Assembly: GCF_963678975.1 (NCBI RefSeq)
Contig: NC_089277.1
Location: 24,130,672-24,194,671, forward strand
Length of the DNA stretch: 64,000 bases
Reading direction: 5' to 3'
Source of the DNA: Dysidea avara
Taxonomy: Eukaryota; Porifera; Demospongiae; Dictyoceratida; Dysideidae
Shown here in pieces: positions 7,722-62,471 of this stretch. Made by a program: the position numbers and the translations under genes. The notes under the pieces were generated by a model. It made no database searches, was not told the DNA's origin, and saw nothing but the letters and a program-made list of their open reading frames with translations. How positions within the stretch are numbered: the first letter of the stretch is position 1; every line of letters begins with the position of its first letter.

Positions 7722-8397
7722 GGCCAGCATTATTATAATTTATCAATTAGTACCTAAGAGCTCTAATAATAATAATTTTACTCCTGAAGGATGTCCCATA
7801 CACAAATGATATTGTCATACCATAATTTGCTAAAAAACTTTGTGCAAAAGTTTTTTGATAGAAATATTGTGTAAAACATTATTTTCGTATGATTTACATT
7901 GTGAACGACTGCTCTATTGGAGTATCTTGATCTTTTTCATGCACGTAAGAAATTTCCATATAATTTTTGCATACAAAAAAATATTTTGCAAAAGTAAATT
8001 ATGGTATATAATTGATGGGTCATCAATGTCTTCTTCATCAGTGGCCCTATAGTACTATTCTATATAATATTATAGGCATCTAAAATTTTGTTGGTATTAC
8101 TTAACTACTATATACACCTAAACATGGCATGCAGCCAATCAAAAAGGATGTCAAACTAGTTTGCATGGTTAACTTGAGGTATCCAATAAAGTCATGCATA
8201 TAATATACGAAAATCCAAAAGTTCACTGCATAGCTATACACATCACTGCATCATTACTACCAATTTTATTAATGTACAAATTAACTACTACCATGTACTA
8301 ATTGTGGTGCATGCATAGTTTCTAACATTGGTGTACAGTATAACACGAAGTTTACATTAAAACGTTTTGCTTTGTGTTTGTATAACTTGCAATTGTC
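7722..8397. other. Intergenic, one copy of the dispersed palindromic motif
   Basis: There is no gene. A copy of the dispersed motif (GACTGCTCTATTGGAGTA followed by TTGATC) sits at 7907-7932. The rest is plain AT-rich sequence. Confidence 0.4.
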
Positions 8398-8403
8398 TTT
8401 ATT
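8398..8403 (-). terminator. Putative polyadenylation signal of the methyltransferase gene
   Basis: TTTATT on the + strand reads AATAAA on the - strand, about 110 nt downstream of the methyltransferase stop codon. It is a reasonable polyadenylation signal by sequence and position, not proven. Confidence 0.4.
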
Positions 8404-8512
8404 ACCAAAAGCAATCAAAACCTACGTATGCACACTTAGTCTATAGCTAACTGTGAACTACTGTACAATATATACAGCTCACATTTTTTTCACACATATA
8501 CAGTTCTCCAGT

Positions 8513-9424
8513 TCAGAGTTTAGGTTTCGACAAGTGACAAAGGAAGTGTGGTGGATTGTCTGTGATCACCTTTTCAAGTTTATTGTTTTGGTTTATTTTG
8601 TTGTAGGCAATCCTTCTCTCCTCAGTGCAGTGGCTTTCAATTTGGTCTATATGCAGTCCAGCAGCTTTGATTTGATCGTGAAGGAACTCGTCAGTATAAT
8701 AATAGTCTGGGAATGTCATTATTTGGGTTTTAGCCCATACAGGATGGCCGTTAGGTGGTTGTCTGACTTTGGTCACCCGGTATAAGGAACCATTTTCATC
8801 AAGAGCAAATGTAACTCTTATCACATCATTGAGATCTGCAAATGCTTTGTTGATTTGCTCATTTGTATGTGGCTTTGGAAGAGAGGCTAATGTGGATTGA
8901 ATTCTTGCCTCCAGTGACACCTGGTCTGCATCGGCATTGAAAAATGTGCTTGATTTTGCAGTACTGACTACCACAGCTTTTCCACCAGGAGCTAGCACTC
9001 GATACAGTTCTTTGAAATGCTTGATAAATGCTTCCAATGGGAGGGTACAGGTGACAAAGATGCTCAGTGCTAAATCAAATGTGTTATCACCATATGGCAT
9101 ATTTACTGCATCACCCTCACAAACTTTAACATTATCAAGACCAGCAGTGGTTTGCTTAGACAATTCTACCATTTCTGCACTAATGTCAAATCCATCAACA
9201 CTCCTAGCACCACACTCTGAGGCATACTTCACCCACTTTCCAGTACCACATCCAATATCTAACACTTTCTTACCCTTTGCTTGTGCTGTCAAATACTGCT
9301 CGACCGCTGGGAATAGAAAAGCCACGTACATTGGGTCTTGCTTAAATTTGGCAGCGTACCGCTCGACTTCAACAGAATTGTATTTATCTCTATCATGACT
9401 ACTGCTGCTTCTTTCAGCCATCAT
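8513..9424 (-). CDS. Class I SAM-dependent methyltransferase (UbiE/Methyltransf_11-like), intronless
   Basis: This is a single open frame of 303 aa encoding a Rossmann-fold methyltransferase that uses S-adenosylmethionine. Residues 54-64 (VLDIGCGTGKW) are motif I, the SAM-binding glycine loop. GFDIS at 78-82 carries the acidic residue that normally binds the SAM ribose. EGDAVNMPYGDNTFDLAL at about 103-120 covers motifs II/III, and RVLAPGGKAVV near 142-152 is the usual post-core strand. The C-terminal third (including YYYTDEFLHDQIKAAGLHI) is a cap region that does not tell me the substrate. There is no signal peptide or membrane segment, so it is probably cytosolic. Two Met codons open the frame (MMAER); the first is taken. 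The + strand frame of 153 codons inside it is a shadow. The intronless structure could reflect retrocopying or simply a single-exon gene. The substrate is unknown. Confidence 0.85.
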   Translation of the reverse strand: MMAERSSSSHDRDKYNSVEVERYAAKFKQDPMYVAFLFPAVEQYLTAQAKGKKVLDIGCGTGKWVKYASECGARSVDGFDISAEMVELSKQTTAGLDNVKVCEGDAVNMPYGDNTFDLALSIFVTCTLPLEAFIKHFKELYRVLAPGGKAVVVSTAKSSTFFNADADQVSLEARIQSTLASLPKPHTNEQINKAFADLNDVIRVTFALDENGSLYRVTKVRQPPNGHPVWAKTQIMTFPDYYYTDEFLHDQIKAAGLHIDQIESHCTEERRIAYNKINQNNKLEKVITDNPPHFLCHLSKPKL

Positions 9425-9666
9425 CGATGGAAAGCCAAGTCAATGTGGTATAGCTAGCTAATTATAACTGCTCAGTAGCTATTGCTACGTATAGACTACC
9501 GTTATGAAAGAAACGTTGTTCAGTAAGGAAACCTACGGAGTTAACTATATACGTACACTGGGCTACGAGAATGCATGAGGTCAACAGTCTAATCACGTGC
9601 ATTTTCAATTGTGTGTGGCTTCCGTTTGTGTGCATGTCTGCAAACAAACTTTTTTTTGTTTGAAAT

Positions 9667-10399
9667 CATAGGCGGCGGAAAGGGGGGCTGAAGCCCCCCC
9701 TCAGAATGATATCACACCGAAATTATCTTTCTTGGAGTGGGGCTGAAAACCGTGATAAGGCCACTCCAAATAAATTCTCTGTTTCCCGTCCTGGACTAGG
9801 GCATATTTGCATGTGGACGGGCGGTCCATTTCCATTATTTCATTATAAGATTGGCTAGCTTTTCAAGCCATTATTTGCCTGGCACAGCCAAAAAGGCTGC
9901 ATAAAAGCATGCTTAAGCTTGTTCCTTCCTTTGTAAGTTGCAAAAACAACACAAACGTGAAGTTTGTGCTGACTTGACAGCACTGTTGACACGTGAGCTG
10001 ACACTGTTTCAAGATGGCTTTTACTGAGCCTATCAGTATGCAAGAATAACCGGAAAATAATGGAAGAATACGGAATAATAGAATATTTAGAGCTGGCAGT
10101 AACTAGATGCGGGCGGTGGACGGGAAACAGAGAATTTATTTGGAGTGGCCTAAAGATCGAGATACTCTAATAGAGCAGTCACTCTAATAAAGTAGTCAGT
10201 GTGTAGCGAGCTACGTAAGAATTTTTATGTAGTTTATCAGCTAGAAATGGTAGCTGGTGAGGTGGAAAGCTCTTGTCAGTTGGTTGTGACCTTCCTTTTT
10301 TTTTTTTTTTGGTCTCACTATACCAAACTATAGAAATAAGTCTGGGTCAGCCCAGCCCCCCCCCCCCCCCCCTCATATCAATTACGTCCTCCGCCGCTG
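9667..10399. mobile_element. hAT-like MITE with 8-bp target duplication
   Basis: The element opens CATAGGCGGCGGA and closes TCCGCCGCTG. It is flanked by the perfect 8-bp direct repeat TTTGAAAT at 9659-9666 and 10400-10407, the hallmark of hAT insertions. GC-rich subterminal runs include a long C tract at about 10356-10372. No transposase is encoded. A PIF/Harbinger-like MITE (9759-10150) is nested inside, so this insertion is the older one. Confidence 0.8.
9759..10150. mobile_element. PIF/Harbinger-like MITE, 392 bp, TAA target duplication
   Basis: The terminal inverted repeats begin GGCCACTCCAAATAAATTCT and extend through CTGTTTCCCGTCC (about 37 bp per arm). The element is flanked on both sides by TAA (9756-9758 and 10151-10153), the 3-bp TWA duplication typical of PIF/Harbinger elements. 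It belongs to the same family as 25055-25513 and 61321-62471, with which it shares a subterminal ATGCGGGCGG followed by GGGAAAC or AGAAAC. Confidence 0.8.
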
Positions 10400-10530
10400 T
10401 TTGAAATAGATTAGCTATTTGGACTCCTCTAAAACATTTTTCCCCCATAAATATATCTATTAAATGCTATCCCACTATATAGGGACCTTAAAGCCTGTGA
10501 ATACAGGGAGTCAGAAACATGTAGCTGAAT

Positions 10531-10874
10531 CAGGGCCGCCCAGAGAAATTAAGGGGCCCAGGGCAAAGAGTTAAAGTGGGGCCCTTGACCCAAGTTGTAA
10601 GGTGAAGACCAAAAAAAAAAAAAAAAAAAAAGTCACAACCTGCTGGCAATGACAATAACTACCCATCACCAACCATATCTCCTTATCTATAAGCTTGCTA
10701 TACTGCTCCTCTGAAGAATACTATGACTGCTCTATTAGATCTGACTGCTCTATTAGAGTATATCGATCTTTTAAACAGGTATTCAGGGGGCCCTTCATGG
10801 CGCCTCCTGGGGCCCCTTTCAGGTTGGGGCCCGGGGCAAAATTCCCCAGTTGCCCCCCCCTGTGGGCGGCCCTG
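10531..10874. mobile_element. hAT-like MITE, 344 bp, 8-bp target duplication AGCTGAAT
   Basis: The ends are CAGGGCCGCCCAGAG on the left and TGGGCGGCCCTG on the right, a typical hAT CAGGG terminus. AGCTGAAT is repeated exactly at 10523-10530 and 10875-10882. Inside lie an A tract (about 10611-10631) and two copies of the dispersed GACTGCTCTATTAGAG motif at 10725-10773. There is no coding potential. Confidence 0.85.
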
Positions 10875-11284
10875 AGCTGAATACAAACTGAATAATATAG
10901 ATCTATATAGCTATATATTTCAACTGAAATGATTTAGGGCCAGTGGGCCACCTAGAACAGCTGCACCTATAGCTCGAGCGCAGTATGATTATAGACTCTG
11001 TCGTCAGCCTATTTAGCTGTATATGCTGTCACCATATTGCGCTTGCGCATACCGGCGTGTGATAGCCATCTATAGATGTGTGAAGTATTAAGCATAATGT
11101 ACATAGGCAGAACTTGGTCAGATAATACTCTAATAGGATAGTCACATCTTCCATGCATGCACAGTAGCTGAGTATGAAAACTTTCATCTGCAGAACCATC
11201 CTATTTGGGTACATTTAGCTTGCTATAGCAATATTTTTGCAAATGAGATGCACGCGCGGTCCTTTGTATATTATCATTCTTTAG

Positions 11285-13015: not shown

Positions 13016-13020
13016 AATAG

Positions 13021-14012: not shown

Positions 14013-14035
14013 ATTCATGAAAATTTGAGAAATGA

Positions 14036-25812: not shown

Positions 25813-28606
25813 AGAGCTACTGGTGGCCTTTAGTTATGACGCCACTATTGTGTTGTATTTGTCACTACTGTGACATATTGAGTTGATTTGGGGATCGTGC
25901 CTTCACCACCTAATAGTCTCACCAGGGGGCTGTCACATTGGTGTGTGTACTTGGTTGTATGTGACGCGGTCCTAGTAATAATAATAATAATAATAACATA
26001 CTTCATGATCAGAAATATGTACATCATTAAGTGACCACAGGTAACATATACCATTATGTAACACTTAGACACCTCAGATAAAAGGAATTCCAGAGGATAT
26101 ATGCATTTACCATGTATACCTCTTTACAGGGAAACATCTAAATATACATTGAAATGTATCCCGGGAAAGTGGTTGCACTTCTAAAAGAGCAACCTACTTT
26201 CATCAAAGCAAACATGGTCTTTATGCGGATGAGGTAGTGGTACCGCCCTCTGTTTGTTCTATACAAACTCAGACCAAAATCAATAGTGAGAATAAATTAA
26301 TGATCATGTGATGATTACACAAATTGAAGTGTTTAAAGCACTCAAATGAAGGCGTTTCAGTATCCTCGCTGTTCTACAAGTTGGGAAATGTTACTTAAGG
26401 TGAGAACCAGTACTCCAGTAGTGTTACAGTATGTAAGCATTTAAAATTTTACTGAAGGTAGCAATAGCTATGTACGTAAGACTGGTTTTTATTCAGAAAT
26501 TCATCATTAACTACATATAGCTATTTCATATATATACTATTTAAAAGTACGTTATACTCAGGAACTTAATATGGATACGTATAATTATAAAAATTTATCA
26601 CATGTTATTATACTACGTATGTTATATAAGGTTTTTATGATGATGCTCAGAATTTTGGTATTAGGCCATTATTATTGTATTGCTTGCAAATTACATGATG
26701 TGAGCAGGATTATTAATTATACACTTGGCTGCCTATTTGAGCACATTCTTTATGATTAAGATTCAGGAAACGCTGCCTGCCCACCATTCATTTACATACA
26801 TATAGTCATGAAACTGCAGATACAATAAACACATATATTATTAAATCTAAAGCCATAAAATTAGTTATCTTGGGCTCATTTAAAATGAAATATTTCCACA
26901 CTACCACTTGTACGATTGTTCTATTACTTCTAGTTTTGCATGCTATAAATGACTACTCTATTAGAGTAACTAGATTTTGAAAAGTGCTAGACTGTGCACC
27001 GACACTGCACCCTGTTGATCAAGAATGGAGAGACTCCAACCCTTTAGTTACCGCTTTACATAATAAATACATTTACCTTAACACTTGGTCATTTTGTGCC
27101 TTCCTCTATTTTAATGGTGCATCCACGTGATCTGTAATCAAATAATTAAAATTTGGTGCGACTACCTAAAAATTGATGTCACGGTGATGGGAAACAAGGA
27201 ATAAAATAATGATGGCCTTATAATAGATACACATTTGAATGATCAAAGGAATTTTTATAACTGAATGTCCACTTCAGCCACAATATTTTAGATCAATTAA
27301 ATTAAGTATACTTAGGCCTCAGGGAATTAGCTATGCTTCTAATTTTAATTTATCACTGCTCTATTTCAAAATTCTTCAAAACGACTTACATTATGCTTTT
27401 ATTATTCCCAAAGCATACTCATTACTACAAATAATTTTCTTAACTTTGTCCAACATTAGCAAAACCCTTAGGCAGCAAAAATGCTGTTTTATTAGACAAG
27501 GAACCTAGATATTTAGCTTTCAAGATACTTAGTAGGTATTGCAGAGTGGTAAAGAGTTGTTTCTCTGACTACCTATTAGAGTATACATGCATTGCTGTAT
27601 ATATCTTGATCTTAATATTGCATACATTTTGCCAATAATGTTCAAAAATAGTTTAATTTATTCTTTTAGCCTATCATTCCCAAAATTCTTGAGGAAAAAT
27701 TCCCTGAGGCCGAAAGTATATTGAAGTCAAGGTGCATATAGATAGTTGTTATGATATTAGATGTTTAATGCGTAGAGTTTTATTCTAATGGAACTTTACC
27801 ACACGCTTGCATGATGTCTTGATCATGAGTTACTAGCATAGCTAGCAAACATCTGTATATTATTGCCCAGTGAGGCTGTGCAAAGTTCCAGATCAACACA
27901 AACCAATTAATGGCTAACTAATTCGTTGGTTCCATGTGATAAAGTTGAGCATCATTATAATGTGAGTACAACATCTTATAATCTGTTCCATGTACCTGTA
28001 CTATATTTCTATACTTAACAATTTCTCACAATCTCATTACTATTATATAAAAAGTGTTGTGAAACCTTACTGGATAAACTGATTAACTGGTCAGTTATCA
28101 GTCATTTTTGCATAGCTGAATAACCAATATCTAAGGAATTCACTCAGAAATGTACGTTTTGGGTACTTCTATCATGCTTCAACGTCCTTGACATTGATAA
28201 TATGTGACACTTTTAGTGTATCATATGGATTCCGCTATAGGTATAATCAATCTTGGTGTCTATTCTTTGGCCACTATATACACACACTGTATTACAAAAT
28301 TTTAAGGGTATATAGCTTACATGTTAGGTGCAGTATAAATCATTGCAGGAAGTTTCATTTGATTCAGTTAACTGGATAGCCAACAGTTATGATCTGCTCA
28401 ATTACCAGTTATGATATTCTGTCCAGTTTCACAACTCTAATAATTATATATGCTAGTACTTATGGAATTTTGGGTTCCAATTAGCTCAGCAAAATAAGGT
28501 TGTGTAACATGTTCATTTCTTGGTCTAGTAAAAAGTAATTATAATTTAAAAGCAAATAAAAATATAGTTGCAATTACAATTTCTCACTATACAGAAATTT
28601 TGTGAT
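25813..28606. other. Intergenic between transporter genes 1 and 2
   Basis: No gene is recognised between the 5' end of gene 1 and the 3' end of gene 2. It contains an ATA/ATT run at about 25975-25995 and two copies of the dispersed palindromic motif (26951-26978, with an exact CTCTATTAGAG core, and 27567-27585). Short open frames here show no family resemblance. Confidence 0.4.
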
Positions 28607-31600: not shown

Positions 31601-34600
31601 TAAACTATAGTGCTGGGTGATATAGATTTTTCTTATGTCATATGTCATGGCAAAATTTATTCACAATATGAACATAAGATTATGTCACGATATATACCAA
31701 TATTTTAACTTGATGTTTGTTTATTTTTTCAGATGATTTTCTACTACACTGTACACAAAACACAGGAATAAGATCATTAATTAACTAATACATCATTATG
31801 CACTTATACAGCTAGTTAAAATGAGAATTAAATGAAAATAATGTTGATTTGCATGGAAATTTACCATACTTAGTTTTCTGATTCATCTACAACTTAATCT
31901 CCAATACCTTTATCATCTTGATCTATTATGATATTTAGAGATTATCAGTTTACAATCACTACATGTGCAAAGCACATGCAAGCTAGGAGGGACATGCTCC
32001 CCAGGAGATTTTTTTAAAACAGATGCTTTGAATGGCATCTGGAGGCTTTTTTACATATACAGTCTCTTTCCTTTTTAATACCAAAATAGCTTAGACCAAG
32101 CTGTATAATTAGAGTAATGGTTATATATTCTACTGACTGTTCTATTAGAGTATCGCACTGACTGCTTTATTAGAGTATTTTGATCGTTCTACAAATTCAA
32201 GTAGCTGAAAATTGGTGCTGGTTAATCACAGTGGCTCTTTGAACTATTATTCTTCACACTGGCCTACTGCTTCCTACATGTCCCAACCGTTGCATACAGA
32301 TCTAAGTAGATAGCGCCTACAAAATACCCAACAGTATGCCACACTGTTGACGTGGGTGTAGCAGGAGTAATGGCAAAACTGGAGATGCCACCTTACGAGC
32401 TCACATTGTACTGCTTAGATCACGTCGTGATATAACTTCTAGCTATTGTATCATGATATAAAAAATTATGTCATGATACATGTATGTCGTATGTTGGCTA
32501 TATCGCCCAGCACTAAAACTACAAATGTAGTCACTCTTTGAGATGTGTAGTAATGAAAGGCAAGTAAAAAAACCCATCCAAAACTGGCCTTAGGCCAGCT
32601 TAGGGGTTTGCAATTTTTAAAAAAAGTTATATTTTACCGAACAGTAGTTGAGGAAGTACAGTAGTTGATGTGAGTTGGTGCACCAGAGTATAGAAACAAG
32701 GCCAGGGTGAAAAAAGTTGTGAAATAAAAGGTGGCAACAAAGAAAACCCTGTGATGGTAGGGTAATGCCAAAAATTTTGATAATACAACTATTTATGGAA
32801 ATTTTGTGTCAAAGTATAATGAAACTTAGAGGAGGCACTCATCTGAATTGTTATTAAAATTTTTGCCATTAGCCTATCATCACAACCATTTCTTGGCCAC
32901 CACTTTTGATTTCACACCTTTTTTTACCCTGGATTTTTTAGAGGCCTTGCCCTTTTTACAGCTTGGCTGTTATTGTATAAATTAAATTTCCTGCACAGCT
33001 AGCCCAATTGTCTTCTATTAATTGTGACTGTTTTAACAAAAGCCCTCATAGCTATAATACAGTAGTTTACACTTCTAAATTTCTTTTTATTGTCTTAACA
33101 TTATGTACAGTGTCCAAAGAATGGGCTTCAGCAATGGTGAGGAAATTGATTTGTACAGGAAGTATACTGAAAATAAATTACAGACGCTTGTCATAACGTC
33201 TGTATGCATTGATCAACAGATTCAGATTAAAATGTTTAGCATGAATAAAGTCATCCAACGTAATAGTTGTAACCCTGTAGACAAGTGTGCATACGAGTAT
33301 AATGTTTTTAAACGAACAAACAACAACGATCTTGTTTCTGTCTACTGTATCATAAACAAATGCACATGACATGCACACCATTGGGGCTGCAGAAACAAAA
33401 CAAAGATACTGTATTCAAGCTCTCCACGAGAAGGTGAACAAGATGGCGCATAAGTTGACACTTTCCTCCCTGAGCAATAGCTCAATTAAAACTTGAATTT
33501 CTTTCCTTGTAGTATGCATAATTTCATCATTATTTCATTAATACTTATCTATAAAAGTATGCTTGTGCGAACTATGTGGATTATTACTGAGATGGTCACA
33601 ATTATATGACTCAGTGTGAGAGTGCCTAGAATTCTTGGGAGGCTCATATTACAGGGTGAATCCAGGGGGTTTCTACTAAAATTGATTTTATATTGATTGT
33701 AAAGGTACTAAATACTCTAATGGAACAGTCTATTAAAGCTACTTAGTAACTAGAATCGTATCTTAAGAGTGTTTGAGACCTACATTTTTCCTGGGGGCAT
33801 GCTCCCAGACCCTTCAGACTTCTCATACTGTAGCTCCACCTCTTACCTGTTTATCCTGCTCCTGATACCATGCCAGCAGAAACAAGCATACATCAATCAC
33901 AGCCTTTCATACATCAGTAAATCCTAATGCATGTTTAAATGTCAGTGAAATTGTTACCAGATTCAATCTCAAAATCAAAAATTTTCTGAAGAAGCATGCC
34001 CCTGACATGCAACAAAAAATTAGAAATCTGTTGCCAAAATTCCTGGAGCCACTCTTGTATTAAGGCAGGAACTTCAACTGGTGTGAGCTTCAGTGGTGTC
34101 TAACATGCTAAACCCAGTTTTGTAGATTGCAATATATTATATAGAGAACATTTTTGTGTCTTCACACACAGTTTGTCACATGTACTTGACACATTGTACC
34201 ACCATCTTTTAGGCTAGTGGCATTCCATTTCCACTTAACTATCAAATAAACTGTGTGTACTTTTACCTAAAACACACAATTATGCTACTAAAATGGTATG
34301 CAAATAACTGTGTTGCAGCTCAAGACCACTAGAACAAACCAATTGTGTAACAGTACACTCAGAAGCATGTGTCTTACAGATGCTACCACCCATAATAACA
34401 ACAGCTGCAACTGACTTCTCAGCATTGCAGTTTCCTCAACTGAAGCGAACTATTTTAACTGAATACTGACATTTAAATTGCTTGAATAGCATGGGACAGG
34501 CTAGAATGATGCTCTCCAAGCAGAAACTCTATGCAGTCATGTATAAGCACCAACATGCATAATAAATTTCACAAAATAAATAATTCCTCTGAAAATTATG

Positions 34601-46700: not shown

Positions 46701-49700
46701 ATCAATCACAATTGACGTAAGTTACAAAGATGGGATTTGGTTTAATCTATTCATAACAAACTGGGTAAATCCATCAAAGTATCATGTTTTCCCTGTATTT
46801 CTCTGTACTAAGAAAAAGGCCTTTCTAACAAAGAAATAACAATAGTGAACTTAATTTCTATTGCACTGTAATTAAACTATTTAGCATCCATAACTCACAT
46901 GCTCTATAGTTGTAACAAAGCTTTTTCTTATTTTCCATGAAAAACAAGCAAATCTGATGGTGTATAGATTTTATTGATTGGAGCCTTGTTTCATTACATA
47001 CTGAAGCAATTAAAAAGTTGTTGTGTTGCACACATACACAGTATGTCTTTATAACAAAACAGAAATACAAAATTCCTACAAAATTTACAGGATTTCTCAA
47101 ACACAGGACAAGCACTACACCCTGATGGATTTCCCAGACTATAAGGTGAACACATTCAGCCTAGTACTGTTATCATACAGCTTGTTCTATTGTGAATTAT
47201 GATTGGTTTGACCTATAAATTGATTGGTTTAAACTTGGAAGTCCACTCCTTTGCTGTACTATACAAGCAACAAACAGAAATTCAAGAAATGTATGAACAG
47301 CTAGCTGGTCACACTTGCAAATTTTATATCTATGCCCTGCCTTCTAGAGAGTCGTAAATCACTATACATATACAGCAGCCTGTATACATATATGCATCTT
47401 TATTTTTTATATCGGGTAGGTGGAGTGTGCATTTTGCAAGAATTAAATAATGGAAGGGGCTATTCATCTGGTTCTGTATGTAATAAAAATACTTAGACAA
47501 AAAGGTTAGTAAAAAAAAAAATCACGGGCTCAAACCTGGATTGCCGGTATGAAAGGCCAGTGGGTACATCTGTGCTACTGCTGCTATAGCTACCCAGCTC
47601 TCTTACTTTTTTCTATTGATTCGATAAGTAATCTGTATATACGTAGTAAGAGGACCGGGTGAAGAAGAAATCAAGGCTGAACCCAACCCTAACCTTAACA
47701 TTAAGTTTGCCGGTTAAGCATAATGATGTCCTTCATTGTTTGATATGAATGTAACTTTTTGGTGAGTTTGGGGTGAGCTAGGGTTGGAGAGAGTGACCCT
47801 AGCTCGCCTTGAACTCACCAAAAACTTACTTTCATACAAACTAGTGTGCTTGATACTAGAGTTATGATCGGTGAGTGCCAGACGAATAGCCTGTATAAGT
47901 CGGCAACCGGAATCAGACAAATGTTAAACAGTAGTACATACATGAATATAAACACTGCCACTACATGCTACCAAGAAACATGCTGACCTTGTCTCCAAAT
48001 AAGAAAACTGCAAATATCAAACTGTACACATTTGCAGTGAGAGTTGAGAGATTAATGACCATCGATGATGAGAATATCAGAACAAGTGGTTTCAAGCAGT
48101 AGTAGCCAGTATTACAGAGATTGACACCCAAAAAGTAGATAACTGTAGTTTAGAAATAAAACTGATATTAATTTATACAATCATATGTAATCACCTCAAG
48201 AAAAATATTAACATGTGACTGGCTGAGCAAAAACTGAAATGAAACAAACTTAACATACGTTGAAATATTTAGTGTCATATTAAGAAAAGATTATGACCGT
48301 AAAAAGCCATATATCAATTTTGTGTAGAAAGGTACAGTATGTGAGTTTTGTGGCTCTGTTTGTCATGTGGGAAGAATACATAATAACTTTCCTAAGTGCC
48401 TTCATCTAGGTGGGTTTCTGTGCCTTCGACTGAAACCCCCTTGTAAATATTAGCTCAGTAGCAGTGTAACTTGCTTAATCGCTGTACTACCAATTTATCA
48501 TAGCAAGCCTCTATGCACCACTGTACTTCACTAGCTTGCATGCAATTGCATTAAGCTAACATTTGCTATGGCTACTAAACTCTCAGCAACACTTTACTTA
48601 CACCTCCCACTGCATTAAAAACTATCAAGATACTCTTAATAGTCTAAGAGCAGTCAAGTAACTACTCTAATAGAGCAATAAAGCTATACGTACTGGGTAA
48701 CATAGTAGATCACATTTGTAAAGGAAATCAAGAAACAATTTGGGAAATTTGCATGCATAAAATGACAGGTTTGTGCTTAGCCAGCTGTTTATTTATGACC
48801 TGCTGAGTGAAAACCTGCACAATTATGTTTCTGAAATTTATTGCATTGAAAATTAATATTAACTATACTACAAAATAACTTTAATGCACATTTTAATTGC
48901 TCTAGTAAACAGTAAAACAAGACTCGAATTGATTAAATTCAGATTTGCCTGAATAAGAATATCTTTGTTGCATTTCTGTACCATGAAGTAAACACGAGTT
49001 AAGTGCATTTTTTTATGTTGCAGCACTATAACTCCATCATCCCATTTATAAGCTTCTTGCTCACTAGCATGGGACAAGTCCCTGTTTTCATAGTTTGTAG
49101 CAATTGTGACTTATGATTGATTAAGTGAGTGCTAGTAATTTACTTTCTATATAGTCAAGGCACAAATTGATTACTTTGCTTTTCCTGCTGTCTATCGCTA
49201 TAACTCCATATAAGGCTAAAGCTTTTAACATCCCATTAGTTTTTCTTCTAGAGAACAAAGAAATTACAGTAAGTCAAAACAGTTTGAGAAAAAGGCAGTT
49301 TTTGCTTAGCGCATCACATTTATTTATACAAATGTCAAAGTGTCATACTTGTTCGTAGGTCCCATGTTATTTCGACTAAAGTTCTTCGATCCAAAATACA
49401 CCTGTGAAAAACAGCCTTTATTAAAAATTTACACAAATTCTATTGTATGAAAATTTCAATGTAATCACCTCACAACACAACATTTGAAGGCAGCAGTTAT
49501 GCATAGCCAGTCAGCCATTAGAATTATTTTAACACTGAGAAGTTATTAACTGCTGTAGAAGCATTCACTTGACACTGACGACACACATAATAACACACAA
49601 CCAATCTTCATGGTAGGAATGTATTACTGTATTTGCAGCCACATAAGATATGTGATCTGAAAATTACTTAAAATGATAAAATATGTACAGTGGAACCTCT

Positions 49701-53357: not shown

Positions 53358-53448
<91 letters not shown>

Positions 53449-56400
53449 TGAGGCAGTAGAAAATTTGCGAATATATATATATTTTTTAAAATTTCGTAGC
53501 ACCTAATCGAAAATGCTTCTGGTCATTCTGAAGGCATGTTTGGGCTTGGTTATACCTGACCAATACCGTCAAGTGGCCGTGAAGGGTTTGCAAAGATGAT
53601 TTTGGCTTGATTTATCTTCGTAGACCACGCCCACATCTTTGTCGTCCCTACCATGTAGTACTATCGTACTGTATGATAATTGGCTTGTGCCTTATATTCA
53701 CACAATTTGCATGTATAAAAGGTGTCTCATCCAGTCGTGACAATAATAATGTTTGTATGATAGTGTTTGTGTGTGAAGAAGGGGAGGAAAATTATTTGAA
53801 ATGATGAAAGTTCTATATCTATCACAATATTACTTACAGTTGAATACTGGAAGCCAGTGCTCCACTAAATCCTAACATTGCCATAAAGTCTATTATACTG
53901 ATTTCTTCTTTGATTAAAAACTCTTCACCGACAATACTGATACACTGTGCTAGTGCAGCGATGACACATAGTATATCTCCCCATAGATCATTGCTTCCTA
54001 AAAAAGAATATATAGACATCCAGTGGCTCTGTATGTGTGCATATGGGTATGTACCACTACAAATGCAACAATACTCGCAAGCAAAATGGGAGCCACGCTA
54101 GGCACGAGGCTATTATGCTCCAAATATTGAGCATTATGCTTTTGAGCAGTGCTCAAAAAATCACCTATTATGCTTTTGAGAATTGCCCATTATTCCCAAA
54201 ATTATGCCACCATAATTGGCTAATAATGCCAGTTCATTGCTGTATCAGGCCATTTTCATTGATGTTTAAGCTTCAAATAGTCTTTAATTCTTTAGCTGGT
54301 TGCTGTATTAGAGTATTTCATTTCAATGTGACTGCTTTATTAGAGTAAATAATCTTCAGTGACTGTTCTGTTAGAGTTTCTGACTGCTCTATTAGAGTAT
54401 CTCGATCTTTTTTAACAGAATTGTGCAATCTGCAGATATTCCTACTGTTAAAGCTTTATAATCACCTCAAAATGCTAGCATAATTCCTGATTCTCACACA
54501 TACCTATTATGCCCGAAATTATGCCGGCATAATCGCCGCATCCCTAAGCCACGCCCTTTAATTAGCGAGTCTGTTAATCGCTTGCACTCTCACGAGACGG
54601 CATTGCATATGAGTGGTACCGTATGTGTGTATATGCATGTACATGTATGACTGTATGTACTGTACAGGTAGCACCACTCACAAAAGATACAGTACTTATT
54701 ATTGTACGTCAATAAATTATATGTACATCTGTATACATAAATTACACATGCAGGCATGCATCAATCAAGCAATCAATCTTCATTTAGCAGCAAGAGTTCA
54801 AAATACTAAGTAGTAAGGGAAAGTGTCTAACTAGGACACAATCAGCAAATCACTGTGTAAACTAGAGCATCCATACTTCAGTAGAGCAACAACTTTACTT
54901 TATACCTATGAACAGTTAACCAGTGATAAAACTGGGTGACTACTGCTGACCTGGATGACCCGCTGACCTGGATGACCCGCTGACCTGGATTGCAATCCAT
55001 GTCAGACTCGGATTTGACTTGAATGTGTGATCTACATGCACCCAGAGCTATGTTTTGGGCTCTTGAATAGCATGTTAAGTACACGGGTAACAATATGGAA
55101 ACTACACAAGTAAGTATTATAATTAAACTATCAGTTTGTGGGTTGGGTTCCATGTAGATTTAGATAATTTTTTTTTATTCTGAGGTTACCAGCACCCCTT
55201 GGCATCACCCCAACGCTACCATGTCTTGCTCTCTTCCCTGTATGTGGGTGTGGCACTTCCCCACACCACACTGACAAATTAGTGTGATGCTGACACATTA
55301 CCAGTATTAAAATAGGTGTGGCTTAAGTAATGGAGGCTTGCCTACTACTGTAGCATACAAAAATAATCGATTAGTGGGTGTGGCCCCACATAAGCCTGCA
55401 GACAGCAATGGACATGGATTTGTGCATAACTGAAATACCACTGATAAATTAGCATGGCTGGTTGTATGCCTAAGCCAGTAATACTGATAAGTGGGCATGG
55501 CTCATGAAAGAAGCCAGGCTGCAGCAGAACTAGGTCATGAGTCATGATGCATCAATACACTTCAAACCTGGGTGACCCAGACAAAACAGTGATCTGACTG
55601 ATCTGACCTGGTTTCAACGTCTCAACACTTACCAACACTTCTCTATCGCCAGAAAAAGTGTTAATTTCATCAAAGGTCAATGTCTACTCAACAATATGCA
55701 GTGATTTTGTACAGGCTGCATTAGCAGTTAGACACTCTCCCTCACCATTTCATAAACTATTAATGGTAGTGTATTTGATGGTAAAGGAAGCCTCCAGTAC
55801 AGGAAGATGAATACAGGAAAGTTGAGCTACATTCCTGTCAAAACCTCACAAAAACAGCTCAGTGATTTGTACATTTACACGATTCAACAACTTTGTGACT
55901 TTCCCAACTTTGTTGAAAATTCTATATACTATATGACAGGAAAATTTGACGGAAGGAAAAAAACTGATGAATCCACATTTCATAATCAGCTTTGACGATT
56001 AAATGTTGATGACAATCAAGAGTTCATAGAGATCTAAACATGTACCGTTAATATGGACATAGAGTTAAAAGTTGACAAATTTTATACTGATTTGTCAAAT
56101 TCACCAACAAAATTTTCTTTTGTCAAAATCTCCTTTCGTTCAGTAAAAGCTGTTATACTTGAGCTAGTGCTAAAGAAAAATATCATACTCAAAAAGTTGT
56201 CTTGAAACAGAATACAGCATTCGGCTTGGTATATTTGTCCACGGTTCACTCCTTTTCACACCATACATACTTATCGAATATGACTCATAGCAATGTACAT
56301 GTAAATGCACCTCCTTATCATAATTATTTTACCTGAACTACTTTTATCTTTGTCCTTTGATGATTTAAAATCTTCATAAATTACTACTGCCATACCAAGT

Positions 56401-59400
56401 GTGCAGATAACCATTGCTAAATAATGGACTAGTCTATATCTGGTTTTGGTTAAGAAAACAGAAAGAAGAACTATCCATATCACACTTGCACCGTGAATGA
56501 TAACCTGTTATGAACATGATGGTGAGACATACATTAATACGATACCGCTTAAATGTAACGTCGTCTCACGAGAGTGCAAGCAATTAAAAAACAAGCCAAT
56601 TAAAGGGCGTGGTACCCATTTCGCTCGCAAGTATTCATCCTGGGATGAATACTCAGAAGTAAAACTTTTAATTAGCTCATTTGTAATAGCACAAAGTGAC
56701 GTTACATTTGAGCGGAACCGTATGAGACCAGATCTCCACATTTTGTACAAAAGAAGTAAAATACACATTAATATTTATATTATTAATAGACTATTGATAT
56801 TGTACAACTAATTTTTATCGTTCACACTGCTCACAACACCCACACACCAACCCCGTACCTCCTGCTGCTGGATGGAAAAAGCTGAAGTGCATGTCCAAAT
56901 TTCAGGTCACTTGTGCATTTGTGGTACGTGGCAATGGGTGTGTATAACTTTAAACTTATATGCTTCATACTAGGGCTGAGCGATACTGCCATTTTAGTAT
57001 CACGATCGATACTAAAGCCACTATTCACGATACTGAATAGTTCACGATACTTACAAATAAGTCAATCATAGCTGGTGCCACATAGCTTACTGCTTAGCAT
57101 TCCTGCAGGAAGTCCTTATAGGTGATAGCAAACTAGCCACTATCATCCTTGTTTACAGTAACAGTTATTGTAACACATGCTTTGAGGTTGTTATGGTGTT
57201 CACACCTCTCTACAGGGGAAACCAGATGGGTGGTCTTTATCATTTACAAGGATTCTTAGCCAACTACTGCATAACAAATGGATTTTTAATGACAGTAATG
57301 TACAGGTATGGTATCACGATAGTTAATAACAAAATATCGCGATATCGATACTTTCAAAATATCGCGATATATCGCTAAAACGGTCATACCACAATTTCTA
57401 TGAGTCTGTAATGCACCTATATAATCAAGCTATGTACATATTAAGTAATCTCTTTATTTGCTTGATTAAATAAATAATGCATTGAGTTATGACACAAATA
57501 TGTACACTTACATGAATGTTGGACCATCAACGACACTCACATACATATACTAACCACATGTTCATACAAACTGTGGCATGTATAAAACCCTCTACAGGAA
57601 ACCTACTACAAATTACAATGGTACTTGCAGTAACTACGGGAAATGATGAGGTTTGATTAGGTACAGTAGAAAGTTTAAAGTTCACAATATAATCAAATAA
57701 AAACCTTGTCATGGTTTGAATAATTAAACTTTAAAAATTAATTTCCAGCTAAACATTGCAATTTAACAGAGCAATGTGGTTATCTTTTACCCATGACCCA
57801 GAATACAGTAACTCATCACTCAGTTCCTTACCATGTTACTAGTAACTGTAGTATACTTCAGTCCCAATATCTGCAAATAAGCTCCTTGTACATCAGCAAT
57901 TCCCAATATTACAAACTTCCACCAGTTAGCTTTGAGCTTTGTCACAAAGTTTTTTTGCAGAGCCATATATGGTCCACAAGTTGCACTGAGCACAAAGTAA
58001 ACACCAGCAGTTTGTGTAGAGGAAATCTGTTCCCCTATGTGGTTATCTAGTAGAGTGGTTAGAACTCCAAATCCAGTAAAAAGTAGGGACAACAGCTGGC
58101 CAGTTACCAGTATATAGAAAAAATAGCTAGAGAAATGAAGCACACACTACAGCTCCAAAAAAGTTACATAACAATGCACTATATAACAAGGAAACTACAA
58201 GGAAATACAAGACATAAGACAGAAGTTGAAAATTTTGTATGTAATGTTTGTTGTATCCTGTTTTGTGATAAGAGCTGTAGGACTTATCCACAAGTTGACA
58301 CAAGTGAATCAGTTCATCTGGGTAATACTACCCAAGAATAAATTATCTCTAAAACTCAACTAAATCACTCACAGAGCTGTATAAGCTCCGTCAAGTGTTC
58401 AATATCACAGTGGTAAGATTCAGAGGCTAGGGAACACTTCCCTACCTCCATCAGATATAGATATTGCTTTAACAAAACAGTCACCGCATTGCAGTATTGT
58501 AGGATGCATTCATGTAAAATACTATTTTAGTGAGTATAGCTACCTACTAGTGTTGACTATACAAGCTTTCACAATAAACAGTAACTGTTATTTGTATACA
58601 CCATACCGTAGCAATACATCAAACAGGTCAATTAAATATTTTCAGGATGTCTAGAGAAAATGGTGATTGAAAGTTGAGCATCTTTATTATATCCCCCTAA
58701 TTTTAAGTTTTTGAGGTCCACTGGTCACCCGGGTTTCGTTGTGATATTGTAGTCCAGAAAGATTGATTGTGGAAGGTTTTGCGGCATTGCCACATGGTAA
58801 AGCATTGACATGTGGTAACATCTGTGATTGTATCTGTTTGGCTAAAAAGCTTTGTAACTCACTAACGGTGATTTATGAAACTTTCTTGAAGATTTCAGCC
58901 TATAGACCTATACAGAATAGCCTGAAGCTATTTTGCTATGCAGGTGTTTAATTTCTGAATAGTTACTGAAGCCTTCCAATTTACATTTGAGTCACAGCTT
59001 CGTAAAAAAATAAAATATATCTCACTAGTAATCAAGTTTAGTATACCTAACACATGGCACCCATCACAATGATAGCAATACAGTACATGTGGCAACTTAG
59101 TAGCTCATCAATAGACAATATCAGCAGGTCTCTTTCATCTGTTCATGAATATTATCATTTCTATGGATCGACATTGTATTCTCACGCGATTCTTCATGTT
59201 GATACTGTCTTAGCATCGCATTATTTTGTTTGGTACATTCACTGCCCCAGGTGTAGACTCGCTTGCTTGCCGGCGAGTGACCTTCCCATACCCAACTTTT
59301 AGCTACTCCCTTCGACGATACCTAAATACTTTCACGCGTTACAAACATGCCAAGACTAACATACACACAGTGGTTCTTGATTTTCCATGCTCCTGTTGCC

Positions 59401-59402
59401 AT
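43708..59402 (-). CDS. SLC35F1/F2-like solute carrier, paralog 3 (7 exons, 377 aa)
   Basis: This is the third tandem copy. Exons in gene order: 59365-59402, 57832-58126, 56333-56504, 53838-53997, 49349-49401, 47988-48142, 43708-43968; total 1134 nt, all GT-AG, same phases. It starts MATGAWKIKNHCV and enters TM1 as YILVTGQLLSLLFTGFGVL. ANWWKFVILGIADVQGAYLQ and VINLSTLTANVYSLIFAVFL are present. Exon 3 is longer by two or one codons than in paralogs 2 and 1, with a Ser/Lys/Asp-rich loop (SSKDKDKSSSG). The TM1-TM2 loop reads LLDNHIGEQ, so the NHT glycosylation sequon of the other copies is lost. The tail is different and longer, with CPAPEQEPPPPTLSESETGY and a final DDKTPLLKVNN, a DxxxLL di-leucine signal. 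No stop or frameshift is seen. The substrate is unknown. Confidence 0.85.
44255..44378. repeat. ~124-bp GC-tipped hairpin repeat
   Basis: AGACATCAAAACACAAGGT at the left is complementary to ACCCTGTGTTTCGATGTCT at the right. The middle contains GCACGAGCGAAGCGAGGGTGC, with AGCGAAGCGAG as a short stem-loop. It resembles in architecture 17749-18485 and 46392-46521. It lies in intron 6 of gene 3. Confidence 0.65.
44549..44916. mobile_element. ~368-bp foldback element with ~150-bp arms
   Basis: CCGAAATTATGTCACAGACA, then TAAAATGGCCGCTGTAG, at 44550-44587 is mirrored by CTACAGCGGCCATTTTATGT, then CTGTGACGTAATTTCAG, at about 44878-44914. The inner parts (AATATCTCAGCCAAGA..., TACCTGC) are also inverted. 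It lies in intron 6 of gene 3. Confidence 0.8.
45799..46308. mobile_element. ~510-bp MITE with TACCGTATAGC ends
   Basis: TACCGTATAGCGGGTTATTT, then TCGAAA, is mirrored by TTTCGAAAATTACCAGCTAT, then ACGGTA. The inner arms carry repeated GAAATT/TTTTCG words. The short reading frames over the arms (RIAGYFR/RIAGNFR) are translations of the inverted repeat, not genes. It lies in intron 6 of gene 3. Confidence 0.75.
46392..46521. repeat. ~130-bp GC-tipped hairpin repeat
   Basis: GGTTTCTACGCCCCTCATAC at the left pairs with the right end (…TAGCATAGAAACC). GATGTGGGTTGGCTACC pairs with GGTAGCCTCGCCCACATC. The tip has CCTTGGCCTGCGGCCTTGG. It is similar in design to 44255-44378. It lies in intron 6 of gene 3. 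Confidence 0.7.
47674..47860. repeat. Dispersed repeat, empty-site copy of 39970-40570, with internal hairpin
   Basis: GCTGAACCCAACCCTAACCT, then GCCGGTTAAGCATAATGATG, matches 39971-39989 plus 40450-40500 without the 460-bp insertion there. A hairpin follows: TTTTTGGTGAGTT...GAGCTAGGGTTGG against CCCTAGCTCGCCTTGAACTC (about 47755-47830). Confidence 0.6.
49688..49881. mobile_element. Tc1/mariner-pogo-like MITE, 194 bp, TA flanks
   Basis: It starts CAGTGGAACCTCTCTATTAC and ends AGAGGTCCCACTG, with TA on each side (49686-49687 and 49882-49883). The CAGTGGAACCTC terminus is well known from pogo/Tigger-type elements. The interior is AT-rich, about unit length, with no frame. It lies in intron 4 of gene 3. 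Confidence 0.75.
50395..50605. repeat. Dispersed repeat, copy A (pair with 51775-51960)
   Basis: The order of words CATAGCTCAATAGTTCCTAA, AATTAACCAGTTTTGCT, CATCTCCTATTCCAAATTTG, GAGATATGTGTCTTCAAAA and TTCATCTT recurs at 51810-51945 with substitutions. The upstream GTGTGTCATGCAGCCAA also occurs near 30533. It is probably an ancient non-LTR or SINE-like copy. It lies in intron 4 of gene 3. Confidence 0.5.
50905..51225. mobile_element. ~320-bp compound foldback
   Basis: GGATATCATTGTTATCAACC, then CAAGGCC, pairs with GGCCTTGGGTTGATAACAGA, then TATCC, at about 51006-51031. TGAAGTAAAATGCTTCAAAG pairs with CTTTGAAGCATTTTACTTCA (51156-51177). AACTTTACTTTACTAGCCTC pairs with GAGGCTAGTACAGTTAAAGT (51191-51211). 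Two hairpins therefore interlock, suggesting a nested insertion or partial duplication of an arm. Confidence 0.6.
51775..51960. repeat. Dispersed repeat, copy B (pair with 50395-50605)
   Basis: It shows the same word order as copy A: GTAGCTCCATAGTACTTGAA, AATTAACCATTTCTGCTT, CATCTCCCATTCCTAATTTG and GGAAATATGTGCCTTCAAAA. A partial third copy may start at about 15308 (CATAGCTCCATGGTCCC). Confidence 0.5.
52345..52555. repeat. Dispersed repeat, copy A (pair with 53510-53700)
   Basis: AAGCTTGTTTGGGTTTAGTT, TTACCTCACCAATACTGCC, GGGCCACGCC..., TTTGTGGTCCCTACTA and CTATCGTACTGTATGATAA appear in the same order at 53543-53680. It is non-coding in both places, in intron 4 of gene 3. Confidence 0.55.
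53359..53448. repeat. (GGCA)n tetranucleotide microsatellite
   Basis: About 22 uninterrupted AGGC/GGCA units. The perfect array implies ongoing length variation. It lies in intron 4 of gene 3, about 400 bp from the exon 4 splice donor. Confidence 0.95.
53510..53700. repeat. Dispersed repeat, copy B (pair with 52345-52555)
   Basis: The words GGCATGTTTGGGCTTGGTTA, TACCTGACCAATACCGTC, ACCACGCCCACATCTTTGTC and CTATCGTACTGTATGATAAT parallel copy A. It lies immediately downstream of the (GGCA)n array. Confidence 0.55.
54099..54546. mobile_element. hAT-like MITE, 448 bp, carrying four palindromic motifs
   Basis: The ends TAGGCACGAGGCTATTATGC and the complement of GCCGGCATAATCGCCGCATC, then CCTA, are inverted with mismatches. 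The 8-bp duplication AGCCACGC is exact at 54091-54098 and 54547-54554. The interior has many GCATAAT words and, in the centre (54300-54411), four copies of the dispersed CTCTATTAGAG-type motif, one exact. It lies in intron 3 of gene 3. Confidence 0.8.
54812..55746. mobile_element. ~935-bp foldback element, GGGARAGTGTCTAACT ends
   Basis: GTAAGGGAAAGTGTCTAACT at the left and the complement of AGTTAGACACTCTCCCTCAC at the right match. The ends resemble those of the 6959-7252 MITE. It includes 2.6 copies of a 17-bp tandem unit (TGACCTGGATGACCCGC, 54947-54990) and a GTGGGTGTGGC/CCCACACCAC inverted pair near 55245-55270. It lies in intron 3 of gene 3. Confidence 0.55.
55935..56140. repeat. Short foldback with AAATTTGACGGA/TTTTGTCAAAAT arms
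   Basis: GGAAAATTTGACGGAAGG at about 55938 faces TTTTGTCAAAATCTCCTTTC at about 56122, with a further AGTTGACAAATTTTA/TGTCAAATTCACC inverted pair between. A related word set (TTTTGACGGATGAAAAAGTT) lies at about 38031. It is an old repeat with low complexity. Confidence 0.4.
56972..57381. mobile_element. Remnant of a hAT-like element (AGGGCTGAGCGATA end)
   Basis: The left end TAGGGCTGAGCGATACTGCC matches a common hAT terminus type (compare AGTGCTGGGYGATATAG at 31609). The interior is built of ATCACGAT/TATCGCGATA words that mirror each other. The right end stops near ATATATCGCTAAAACGGTC without the expected terminal CAGCCCTA, so about 18 bp are missing or diverged. It lies in intron 2 of gene 3. 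Confidence 0.55.
59365..59402 (-). CDS. Coding exon 1 of transporter paralog 3
   Basis: A 38-nt exon encoding MATGAWKIKNHC plus two bases of a Val codon completed by exon 2. The donor is GTATGT. Length and phase equal exon 1 of paralog 2, and the residues KIKNHC align with KINNKV of paralog 1. The frame runs on as open sequence, so the splice is inferred. Confidence 0.7.
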
Positions 59403-60419
59403 TGACTTGATCCAGGCCGAGATCCAGGCTCAAGATGAAATAAGGCGTGGCCAACAATAGAGGTCACAACACGTGGTTGCACCAAACCGCAAACTAGTAA
59501 GTCTTCATCAGCCACCCTATCAGCGCACAACTTTGTTTTGTCCTCCATTTATCAAATAGCTAAGCCTTTTAGCTACTTTTAGTTCCAGTTTTGATGCTGA
59601 CAGTTTACTTTTCAGTGTTAAAAACAGCATGCATCGTTATAGTAGACTTTGTAGACAAGGCAAACTTCATTTTACTAGCTAACATTGGGATGTCCATGAG
59701 ATAATGCATCAGTAAAAGGCTTTGGCTACAGTGATACAGACTGTTAGTGAACAGCCTACTATCGCATCTACGTATAATGGGGGCAACCCTCAATGCACTG
59801 GGCGAAAAGTTCCATGTCCGCTTGTAGGTAATGAGTATAAAATGTGCATGAAATTTGTCATTTCAGCCACATTTCATACTTAGAACATTAGTAGATTTCA
59901 GTAAATTTCATACAGAGGATAGAGAAAGATTTACTGCACCTAGAATGGTGCTGGAAATGAGGCAGTGAAGAAAGGTACATTTTAACACTGTGAAATGCAT
60001 ACAGGATGTAAAAAATCCTGTAGCTGAATTCAACATTTTCTATATTGTGCATCTGCTTTATACTGCGCTAGTAATATAGCTAGCAATGTCTCGCTCCTGT
60101 GTTGTATTTACTACCCACAATACGTATTTCATTAATGAGTAAAAAAGCACATCATTTGTACAGCAACTATAATTTTCAGTTCACAAATTGAAGTTCTTGA
60201 CACCTTCAGGATTCTTTTTTTCTGAGGGATGTTACATCACTAAAATTAATGTGGATTTGCTCTTTTACTTCTGTCCGCTGAGTGCAGCTTTCTTCTCATA
60301 ATCTGTTTCATCACTAGTTACATATAGTTCTTATAGGTAGCATCTGTAAAAATGTTGTTACAATAAAAATATTGCTATGGCAATTTTTTTCTGTGACAAA
60401 CCTTGAATTAATGTATACT
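59403..60419. other. 5' flank of transporter gene 3
   Basis: This should contain the promoter of gene 3. Only the few bases around the ATG are alignable with the other paralogs. No other gene or clear element is visible. Confidence 0.35.
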
Positions 60420-60641
60420 ATTCCTTGTACAGTGTCATTCATAGCTTTCAGAAGATCCAGCCATGATCACAGGTTTCTCCACTGCCTAACTTCAATAGAC
60501 CACAAAATACTCATTTCCAAGAACTATAGCAGAACTTACTATGTGATTTCATCTACAGTACTACCACAAGACATCAGCAGTCCAAGTTTTGAAAGCATCA
60601 GCAACTACTTTGTAACTTCCTTTGACAACTTTACGTAGCTA
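60420..60641 (+). pseudogene. Possible LINE reverse-transcriptase C-terminal remnant
   Basis: The open frame includes RSSHDHRFLHCLTSIDHKIL and VLPQDISSPSFESISNYFVT. The spacing of an R.HxHRF block, a later LPQDI and a final SF...F stretch is like the C-terminal tail of many non-LTR retrotransposon ORFs (R...RF...D...WNSLPxxI...SF). The central WNS word is not intact. It is a short decayed fragment if correct. Confidence 0.3.
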
Positions 60642-61320
60642 GGTGATGTTGATGGCAGATCCCACTACCATGCAATGATAGATAACAGATTAATAATGAA
60701 TTAGCCACATCTTCTTACCTCACAATTGCTACAAATGCAGCTCTATGTCTTTCTGCAAAGTTCCCTATGTCAGGGTAGCTTGCACTTGCAGTCATCTATA
60801 AAGTATACTTAACCAATTCACTGTGAGGTAGTTGAATCCCCCAGTTGTCTCTCGATCCAGGGGGTATTATCCTATACTACTCCTTTTGCCAGCAAGCAAT
60901 ATGCGATTTTGTAGCTGCCAAATGCGTGTAGCACTGTAGCTAGCTACTGTAGCAAAGGTATACAATTGTGGCGTCGCTAGAAACTGGTGGAAAAGGATGG
61001 AAGAGGCGATATCTACGAACGATCATAAATGCTGTGACAGTCTTTATAGCTATACCTGTAGGTAAGTCTGCCATGGAGCACAAGCACTGTTCTAGTTCTG
61101 GATGACAACAAGCTGCACCATTGCTAGAGCCTCGTTATTAACTGCGACTAGGACAATCGGAAGAAACATGCAGCGAAGGTGATTGTGTGCAATCTGTGCA
61201 TGCATGCATGCTGTTGGTATAATATATACGAGCATGATAGAGCAGTGACCTCATCCATGCGCAGCCATATAGCTAGTGCGGTGGATGCACTGTGGCTAAT
61301 TAGATTGTCCACACTGATTA

Positions 61321-62471
61321 GGCCACACCAAGTCAAACCTTAGTTTCTGGTCACCCGCCCGCATGGTAAACCTGAAACCCTAGTTTATGAGGACTATTAT
61401 TAATATTACAGGTGCTTAAGTGCACGTGACCCAGCAAGACACTTATTTTTTACTGCAAAAGATCGATATACTCTAATAGAGCATTCAGGGATTCCAATAG
61501 AGCAGTCACACTACTCTTAATTCTAATATTAGGTATATATTAGGTATATATGCCACACTAATAAAATGTTTCTAACTATAGCTAGTTTTGTCCTTGATTA
61601 TATAGCTGTTCAGATTATAACTGTTACTAATGCTTCTGTAACCAAAGTAATTTCAGTAGCATTAACTACTAGTCCATGCAGATGGGCCATAGCTTTAACT
61701 TTATAATTCAAATGTAGTCCTCTAATGATTAGTCTAATTCCTTATCACTGAACACTACAGGGGTATGGAAAGCCGGCAACATTCGGTGAGCTTAAACTTA
61801 AACTTTTCCATAACTAAAATTAGATTGGCAAGTAGAAACCCTTATAGTTTAAACATTCCCAGATGATCACTAAAAAACAGTAGTCTGGAGCACTCAATGA
61901 CTCAAAACTTTGACAGTTACTTTTCTCAAGGTTACTGAATAGAAGACTGGAAACACATAGCTAGTGGGCTAAGACTTTACATTTGAATGAAGAATTTCTG
62001 ATGTGAAAATAGAAGTTAAATTTCATTGTGTATCATGATCATTTGAACAACTTAGCTATAAGTCATAGCAAGCTTCTTTATTATGGACTCTTGGTCATAG
62101 TAATACTTTCCTGACATAGCTAATGAGACATTTATTTCACTTGGAAAGCATAAGTAGCTACATGAGCAAAACATTTCCTATAGTATATTCTAAATAAATA
62201 AATAAATATATACTTAAATGCTATACATCAGTGTATAGCTAGCCATGATCCATCAACAACTTTCCTAGTGCATTTTTTGCCGAAGCACAACTACTTATGT
62301 TGTTGGTTAAGTATAAAATCAACATGAATTTGCTAAATTGAGCAAATAATAATACCATACAGTATATTGTCACAGTAGAGTCTATAGTCCTGAAGTCCTG
62401 ATCATCCGCCCGCCCGCATCCATTTGTAGGCTTGGGAGTGACCAGAAACTAAGGTATGACTTGGAGTGGCC
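61321..62471. mobile_element. PIF/Harbinger-like element, 1151 bp, TTA target duplication
   Basis: It starts GGCCACACCAAGTCAAACCT and ends with the complement (AGGTATGACTTGGAGTGGCC). TTA is repeated at 61318-61320 and 62472-62474. The arms include TTAGTTTCTGGTCAC and CCCGCCCGCAT (the family GCGGGCGG word). It is the longest family member here but still lacks a transposase frame. A pair of dispersed palindromic motifs is at 61460-61510. Confidence 0.8.

Follow-up and report, generated by a model that had tools for sequence, protein, structure and literature searches.

How can one short motif lie inside transposons whose ends are unrelated? The question is raised by a 64,000-nucleotide stretch of the genome of the sponge Dysidea avara (assembly GCF_963678975.1, contig NC_089277.1, positions 24,130,672 through 24,194,671; herein the window), for which an earlier note, made from the letters alone, had described about 25 copies of a motif centered on a palindrome, on both strands and often in pairs or quartets. 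The motif proves to be a directional unit of ∼20 bp, arranged in short tandem arrays that are carried by non-homologous transposon families and, in two of these families, inherited with the element. Shared machinery among transposons is usually confined to one superfamily, and an array common to several would point to a common host dependency. We tentatively prefer, among the explanations weighed below, a host-factor binding array that unrelated transposons have kept.

Copy number and anatomy of the repeated unit

With up to three mismatches allowed and both strands searched, GACTGCTCTATTAGAGTA has 27 copies in the window, whereas 100 dinucleotide shuffles yielded 0.06 on average and never more than 1; the copies described in the earlier note are real, far above expectation, and more numerous than stated. 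All six exact CTCTATTAGAG cores that it named are present (10165, 10748, 26956, 48665, 54387, and 61471), and its positions are accurate to ∼10 bp, except that of the units at 48648 through 48685 one is clear (48663) and the other rearranged. The genome comprises 550,814,596 bases in 108 contigs, 15 large contigs making up nearly the whole assembly. Exact CTCTATTAGAG cores number 46,958 genome-wide (23,544 and 23,414 on the two strands) compared with 336 (175 and 161) for a reversed-letter control; the unit plus tail, TGACTGCTCTATTAGAGTATCTCGATCTTTT, has 29,971 matches at up to three mismatches (14,996 and 14,975) and its control has 0 on either strand. An even sample of 20 evenly placed 10-kb loci (L009 through L028; 200 kb in total) contains 61 motif copies at the same threshold and no copy of the reversed control; the density, 305 per Mb, would when scaled up give roughly 168,000 copies in the whole genome. 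The most widely dispersed 14-mer of this sample, simple words dropped, comes from the motif and occurs in 11 of the 20 loci. Carrier-flank 18-mers typically have few copies at up to three mismatches, and minisatellite 18-mers outnumber the motif. With the even sample, 48 loci were used, of which 28 (L001 through L008 and L029 through L048) were picked at exact cores.

The unit, TGACTGYTCTATTAGAGTAT, runs from a T at −1 to about +17, tolerates C/T at two positions, and has a sharp 5′ border at TGACTG. Units are arranged head to tail, one to four per array, with spacings of 13 to 50 bp over the window and all fetched loci; within the window, where the pairs and quartets are borne out, the range is 17 to 50 bp. 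Spacings peak at 17, 21, and 32 bp, but helical phasing is not claimed because related copies repeat identical spacings. An optional TCTCGATCT tail (variants CGATCT, CAATCT, and TGATCT) is commoner on the last copies of arrays (35/57) than on earlier copies (11/36; Fisher p = 0.005), and the GATC that the earlier note saw flanking the motif is present as part of this tail.

The palindrome, on which the motif had been centered, is incidental and is not maintained, because mirrored changes are almost never compensated: in 87 copies with 435 mirrored base pairs, a change on one side was seen in 88 pairs and on both sides in 5, and 2 of these 5 were complementary. A hairpin or palindrome element, for which 2 complementary double changes among 93 changed pairs leave no sign of compensation, was rejected. 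Unit subtypes defined by place in the array were likewise dropped; a hand count in the window had hinted at a difference at position 5 of inner and terminal copies, which a larger count did not bear out (Fisher p = 0.40).

Carriers of different superfamilies

The 96 arrays of the window and fetched loci do not fall within one alignable parent but form 46 flank clusters (sizes 20, 13, 9, 5, and 3, five of 2, and 36 single), and the carriers differ in their ends and in the length of their target site duplications (TSDs), in agreement with the earlier suggestion that no one transposon family explains the motif. The 46 clusters are an upper bound on the number of parents because weak kinship is missed; array I of the window and some pogo-like arrays, first counted as single, were later tied to others.

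Three of the enclosing elements that the earlier note proposed are confirmed. The hAT element at 10531 through 10874 is of CAGGGCCGCCCAGAG type with an exact 8-bp TSD, AGCTGAAT, and has a relative in L006 (TSD CCTTCTGG). The hAT element at 54099 through 54546 (TAGGCACGAGGC) has AGCCACGC as TSD on both sides and belongs, with its relatives in L049, L054, and L055 and with L001, L025, and L023, to a type ending in TAGGGACC/TAGGCA...TATTATGC with exact 8-bp TSDs. The PIF-like element at 61321 through 62471 has the TSD TTA and 28/30 matches in its terminal inverted repeats (TIRs). The fourth, at 31609/31610, is weaker, with 13/14 TIR matches and TA flanks only, and its array sits between flanks that align to a different hAT type; that type, CAGGGCCGGAG, has an 8-bp repeat one base off its end in L056, and no 8-bp repeat was found where it was looked for in L052. 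A second PIF-like carrier, GGCCATTATTATTG, lies at 26664 through 27217 (TSD TTA; 21/30 TIR matches). A pogo-like miniature inverted-repeat transposable element (MITE) of 231 bp carries an array at positions 481 through 711 of L016 (TA). Relatives occur in L019 and L003; in L003 an insertion has split the element, and an apparently array-less copy turned out to be the other half of the array-bearing element. In a further family, a 31-bp minisatellite precedes the array, and ∼800 bp that share a common end follow it; the minisatellite and hairpin-like end lead us to label the family Helitron-like. Its minisatellite (TGATTTGTTTGTAGCTGAACTCTCTACAGG and variants), which extends for up to kilobases, is the most numerous of ∼2,500 sampled 18-mers and was seen in L010, L014, L018, L020, L022, L024, and L025 (also L015 and L023). 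A subterminal repeat bound by a transposase and restricted to hAT elements was rejected, since the unit also occurs in PIF-like, pogo-like, and Helitron-like carriers. The motif lies inside transposons of defined families; for many arrays, with the 36 singletons, whose flanks resemble those of no other array in the window and fetched loci, carriage by a known repeat is only putative.

Within the hAT and PIF families the array is inherited. A motif-free hAT flank query of 190 bp gave 1,623 genome candidates, and scoring of the best 40, one of them from the window, showed 98 to 100% identity; a PIF flank query of 130 bp gave 568, the best 40 of which (again including the window's own) were 100% identical. 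From these best 40, a further 20 copies per family were chosen by flank alone, and because the array is kept in 20/20 hAT and 20/20 PIF copies, and hence in 40/40, we take it to be passed on with the element. These are the youngest copies of two families, and older ones may lack the array; a search for empty sites in otherwise identical copies found 0/20 hAT and 0/20 PIF copies without it. The identity among the best 40 of 568 candidates points to a very recent burst of the 61321 through 62471 family.

Arrays change by whole units. Two units are present in 19 of the 20 hAT copies (in one of these, L074, the second is cut by a breakpoint) and one in L060, while Helitron-like elements hold one (L020), two, or three (L046) units between the same flanks. 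The recombination junction that the earlier note had considered is reduced to this gain and loss of units inside arrays. A flank-only search of the window and fetched loci returned matches with a near-intact unit or none, and few intermediates. For the Helitron-like element, the unit was found in 9/14 matches; two of the 5 unit-less matches are second matches inside array-bearing elements, and those in L015, L022, and L023 lack the unit. Among the hAT elements related to arrays B and C, 6/6 had the unit, some of these loci being core-chosen.

Between two subgroups of the Helitron-like family, seven copies in all and from evenly placed loci, no window of 32 columns among 148 has diverged less than that of the unit plus tail (5%, compared with a median of 29.7%). 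Slower evolution of the motif than of its flanks is seen in this one family, the other comparisons being biased by motif-based selection: in eight families the unit was more alike than the flanks in 8/8 and the tail, which was not used in choosing copies, in 6/8, and in 28 homologous, non-independent pairs the unit was 0.944 alike and the flanks 0.876 (unit higher in 24/28; free alignment ends inflate flank identity).

A putative host factor and the alternatives

We propose that the unit is a putative long, directional DNA-binding site of ∼20 bp, which on the last copy may be extended by GATCT. Short tandem arrays of it would have been built into several non-autonomous transposon families moved by different machineries. 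There they would attract a single host factor to the benefit of these transposons, the simplest role being that of a germ-line enhancer or promoter; families carrying the array would then have been kept and amplified. Of the interpretations in the earlier note, a shared protein-binding site is the one we favor, and the distribution of the arrays suggests that different transposons rely on one host DNA-binding protein. It is by inference from these observations that we speak of a bound protein, of a benefit to the transposon, and of the way in which each family first gained its array. A multi-finger zinc-finger or THAP-type protein of the host, or one like them, would suit a site that is long and directional and that recurs while its flanks do not, and the length and specificity of the unit seem better suited to such a protein than to a small-domain transcription factor. 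A bolder form of the same proposal, which we regard as doubtful, makes this protein a general transposon licensing factor: hAT, PIF-like, pogo-like, and Helitron-like elements would each have acquired and kept the array, and only protein-recruiting elements would be expressed or mobilized in the germ line. If true, the proposal offers a route to the DNA-binding protein and accounts for the spread of ready-made regulatory sites, tens of thousands of them, through a genome, and the host needs of non-autonomous elements become a directly testable question.

Several results weigh against a binding array kept by its carriers. Across the 28 pairs the tail (0.845) has no advantage over the flanks, and the copies in the eight-family and 28-pair comparisons were chosen by motif score, which favors high unit identity. 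A rule that the tail faces the nearer element end, true in the first window cases, is not claimed because it held for only 8/12 arrays with assigned ends (for: A, C, H, Q, R, L001+, L006, and L025+; against: L001-, L025-, L016, and L023), a count that excludes six doubtful TA/TTA finder hits, array B (ends by eye), and the later L049, L054, L055, and L056, all tail-near. Flanks recur on both sides of 35/71 arrays, compared with 73/200 random places, a modest difference in a small sample, and on neither side of 20/71, compared with 70/200. An automatic TIR and TSD finder gave matches at 16/71 arrays and at 66/400 random places; a stricter version gave 174 structures (9 hAT, 5 PIF-type, and 160 TA, many overlapping), of which 3, 2, and 11, respectively, hold a unit, leaving 6/9 hAT and 3/5 PIF structures without one. 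The finder is no proof of carriage, and we therefore place weight on the exact 8-bp TSDs and the many-copy families. The 36 of 96 arrays that are flank singletons, in what is a small sample, count on the same side, as does L007, an exact single copy whose distal flank is repetitive: among the best 40 of 638 candidates, no scored match but L007 itself reaches the 96 nearest bases, those past base 125 of the 221-base query.

Such singletons, the unmatched flank of L007, the sharp border at TGACTG, and the unrelated ends of the carriers are what would be expected of a mobile micro-element, already raised in the earlier note, in which one unit (30 to 60 bp) inserts into transposons and unique DNA and is then carried along. 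We nevertheless consider it improbable. Direct repeats of at least 5 bp surround 18/70 arrays, with 17.1 expected, and so show no excess (elements without target duplication would escape this test); the flank-fetched copies of two families, young as they are, carry the array in every case; and copy number changes by whole units within the array. Should many of the exact copies prove to sit in DNA that is truly unique, this reading would regain weight. Rather unlikely, though less so, is neutral sharing, in which an old, functionless tandem repeat was captured or exchanged through nesting and recombination and a few young active families supply many copies. Helitrons can capture DNA, and the hAT and PIF carriers are both young and numerous, as the near or full identity of the best 40 candidates of each indicates. 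Set against this are the low divergence of the unit plus tail in the Helitron-like family and the same 18 to 19 bp being repeatedly the common part while flanks are unalignable; that several classes captured these same 20 bp independently would call for some reason. Finally, the arrays might be architectural or regulatory sites of the host, such as loop anchors or silencing sites, from which the host and not the transposon benefits. Precedents are the placozoan loop-anchor motif in Mutator TIRs (PMC12221973) and the nematode HIM-17 sites in MITEs (PMC9757741). This too we think quite unlikely: the slow divergence was observed within a carrier family, not at particular loci, and ∼300 copies per Mb compare with 3,065 to 4,261 loops in whole placozoan and ctenophore genomes (PMC12221973).

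The CENP-B box, which is common to alpha satellite and Tigger elements and is bound by a domesticated transposase, resembles the sponge unit in its similar length and its occurrence in unrelated repeats, but it has a different sequence, is centromeric, and is not known to form short arrays in many MITE families. The closest published case that we found is that of the Caenorhabditis m1m2 motif pairs in CERP2/CELE2 MITEs, which are bound by the THAP protein HIM-17 and active in germline promoters (PMC9757741). There, as here, short motifs lie inside MITEs in thousands of copies, there in tandem or divergent arrangement, and the motifs at co-opted promoters are described as more conserved than their neighbors (PMC9757741). 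The nematode system, as described there, involves two related MITE families and two motifs, whereas the sponge has one ∼20-bp unit in several superfamilies and a Helitron-like family; the copy number is far higher for the sponge unit, and its binder is only putative. The breadth of carriers and the copy number set the sponge unit apart. The placozoan loop-anchor motif is likewise transposon-borne and, in an early-branching animal, connected with genome regulation, but it lies in the TIR of one superfamily, and the likeness is one of description (PMC12221973). The consulted text mentions tandem arrays neither for this motif nor for the GC-rich loop motif of ctenophores, and it reports diffuse contacts, not loops, for a sponge (PMC12221973). 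A literature search for GACTGCTCTATTAGAGTA found the sequence in none of the papers searched, shorter pieces occurring in papers judged unrelated; a search of Rfam gave 0 matches, and so did looking for the exact letters in viral contigs and in genomes of bacteria and archaea.

Arrays along the window and neighboring features

Array A (7907 through 7936, plus strand) has one unit with a TCTTGATCTTTT tail, within a possible small TIR element at 7820 through 8004 (11/14 TIR matches, TA flanks). Array B (10152 through 10197, minus) has two units 17 bp apart and a tail; by eye, a hAT-like element of CAGCGGCGGAGGA type surrounds it (∼9672 through 10399), and at its tail lies a 392-bp PIF MITE (9759 through 10150; GGCCACTCCAAATAAATT, TSD TAA) that is itself without an array. 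Array C (10725 through 10772, plus) has two units, the first with a 9-bp deletion relative to other family copies, and its tail is 102 bp from the right end of the hAT element at 10531 through 10874. The one degenerate unit of array D (11126 through 11143, minus) has flanks that group with the TATGC hAT type, to which the old repeat common to arrays E (13770 through 13835, minus, two units) and L (35882 through 35948, minus, two units) also belongs. Arrays F (15456 through 15485, minus) and O (51447 through 51478, minus) are single units in a shared repeat, that of F standing at its end. This repeat (15458 through 15620 and 51450 through 51608) ends at the motif and has, by eye, tRNA-like A and B boxes, making it a possible short interspersed nuclear element (SINE) carrier; a search for tRNA genes found 0, and the tRNA-like SINE reading of both arrays is by eye.

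Arrays G (21496 through 21547, plus, two units) and J (33700 through 33730, minus, one unit) have flanks unmatched elsewhere in the window and fetched loci. Array H (26951 through 26980, plus) is one unit inside the PIF-like element at 26664 through 27217, and H2 (27567 through 27615, plus) is one weak unit with 2 core mismatches and, by eye, a tail displaced by an insertion. Array I (32135 through 32189, plus) has two units 25 bp apart and flanks that align with L052 and L056, of the CAGGGCCGGAG-ended hAT type. Array K (35531 through 35673, plus) has four units, and its flanks recur in L019, L025, L035, and L039. The clear and rearranged units of array M (48620 through 48680, minus) lie in a repeat common to L044. 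Four units and a tail make up array Q (54298 through 54411, plus), in the hAT element at 54099 through 54546, and the two units of array R (61457 through 61507, minus) end in a tail 136 bp from the left end of the PIF-like element at 61321 through 62471.

Apart from the arrays, the window contains a 2.3-kb direct duplication (1569 through 3839 and 4700 through 6867; 87.8% identity) and two open frames on the minus strand, one of 308 amino acids with a methyltransferase domain (8513 through 9439) and one matching SLC35F solute carriers (19512 through 20093).

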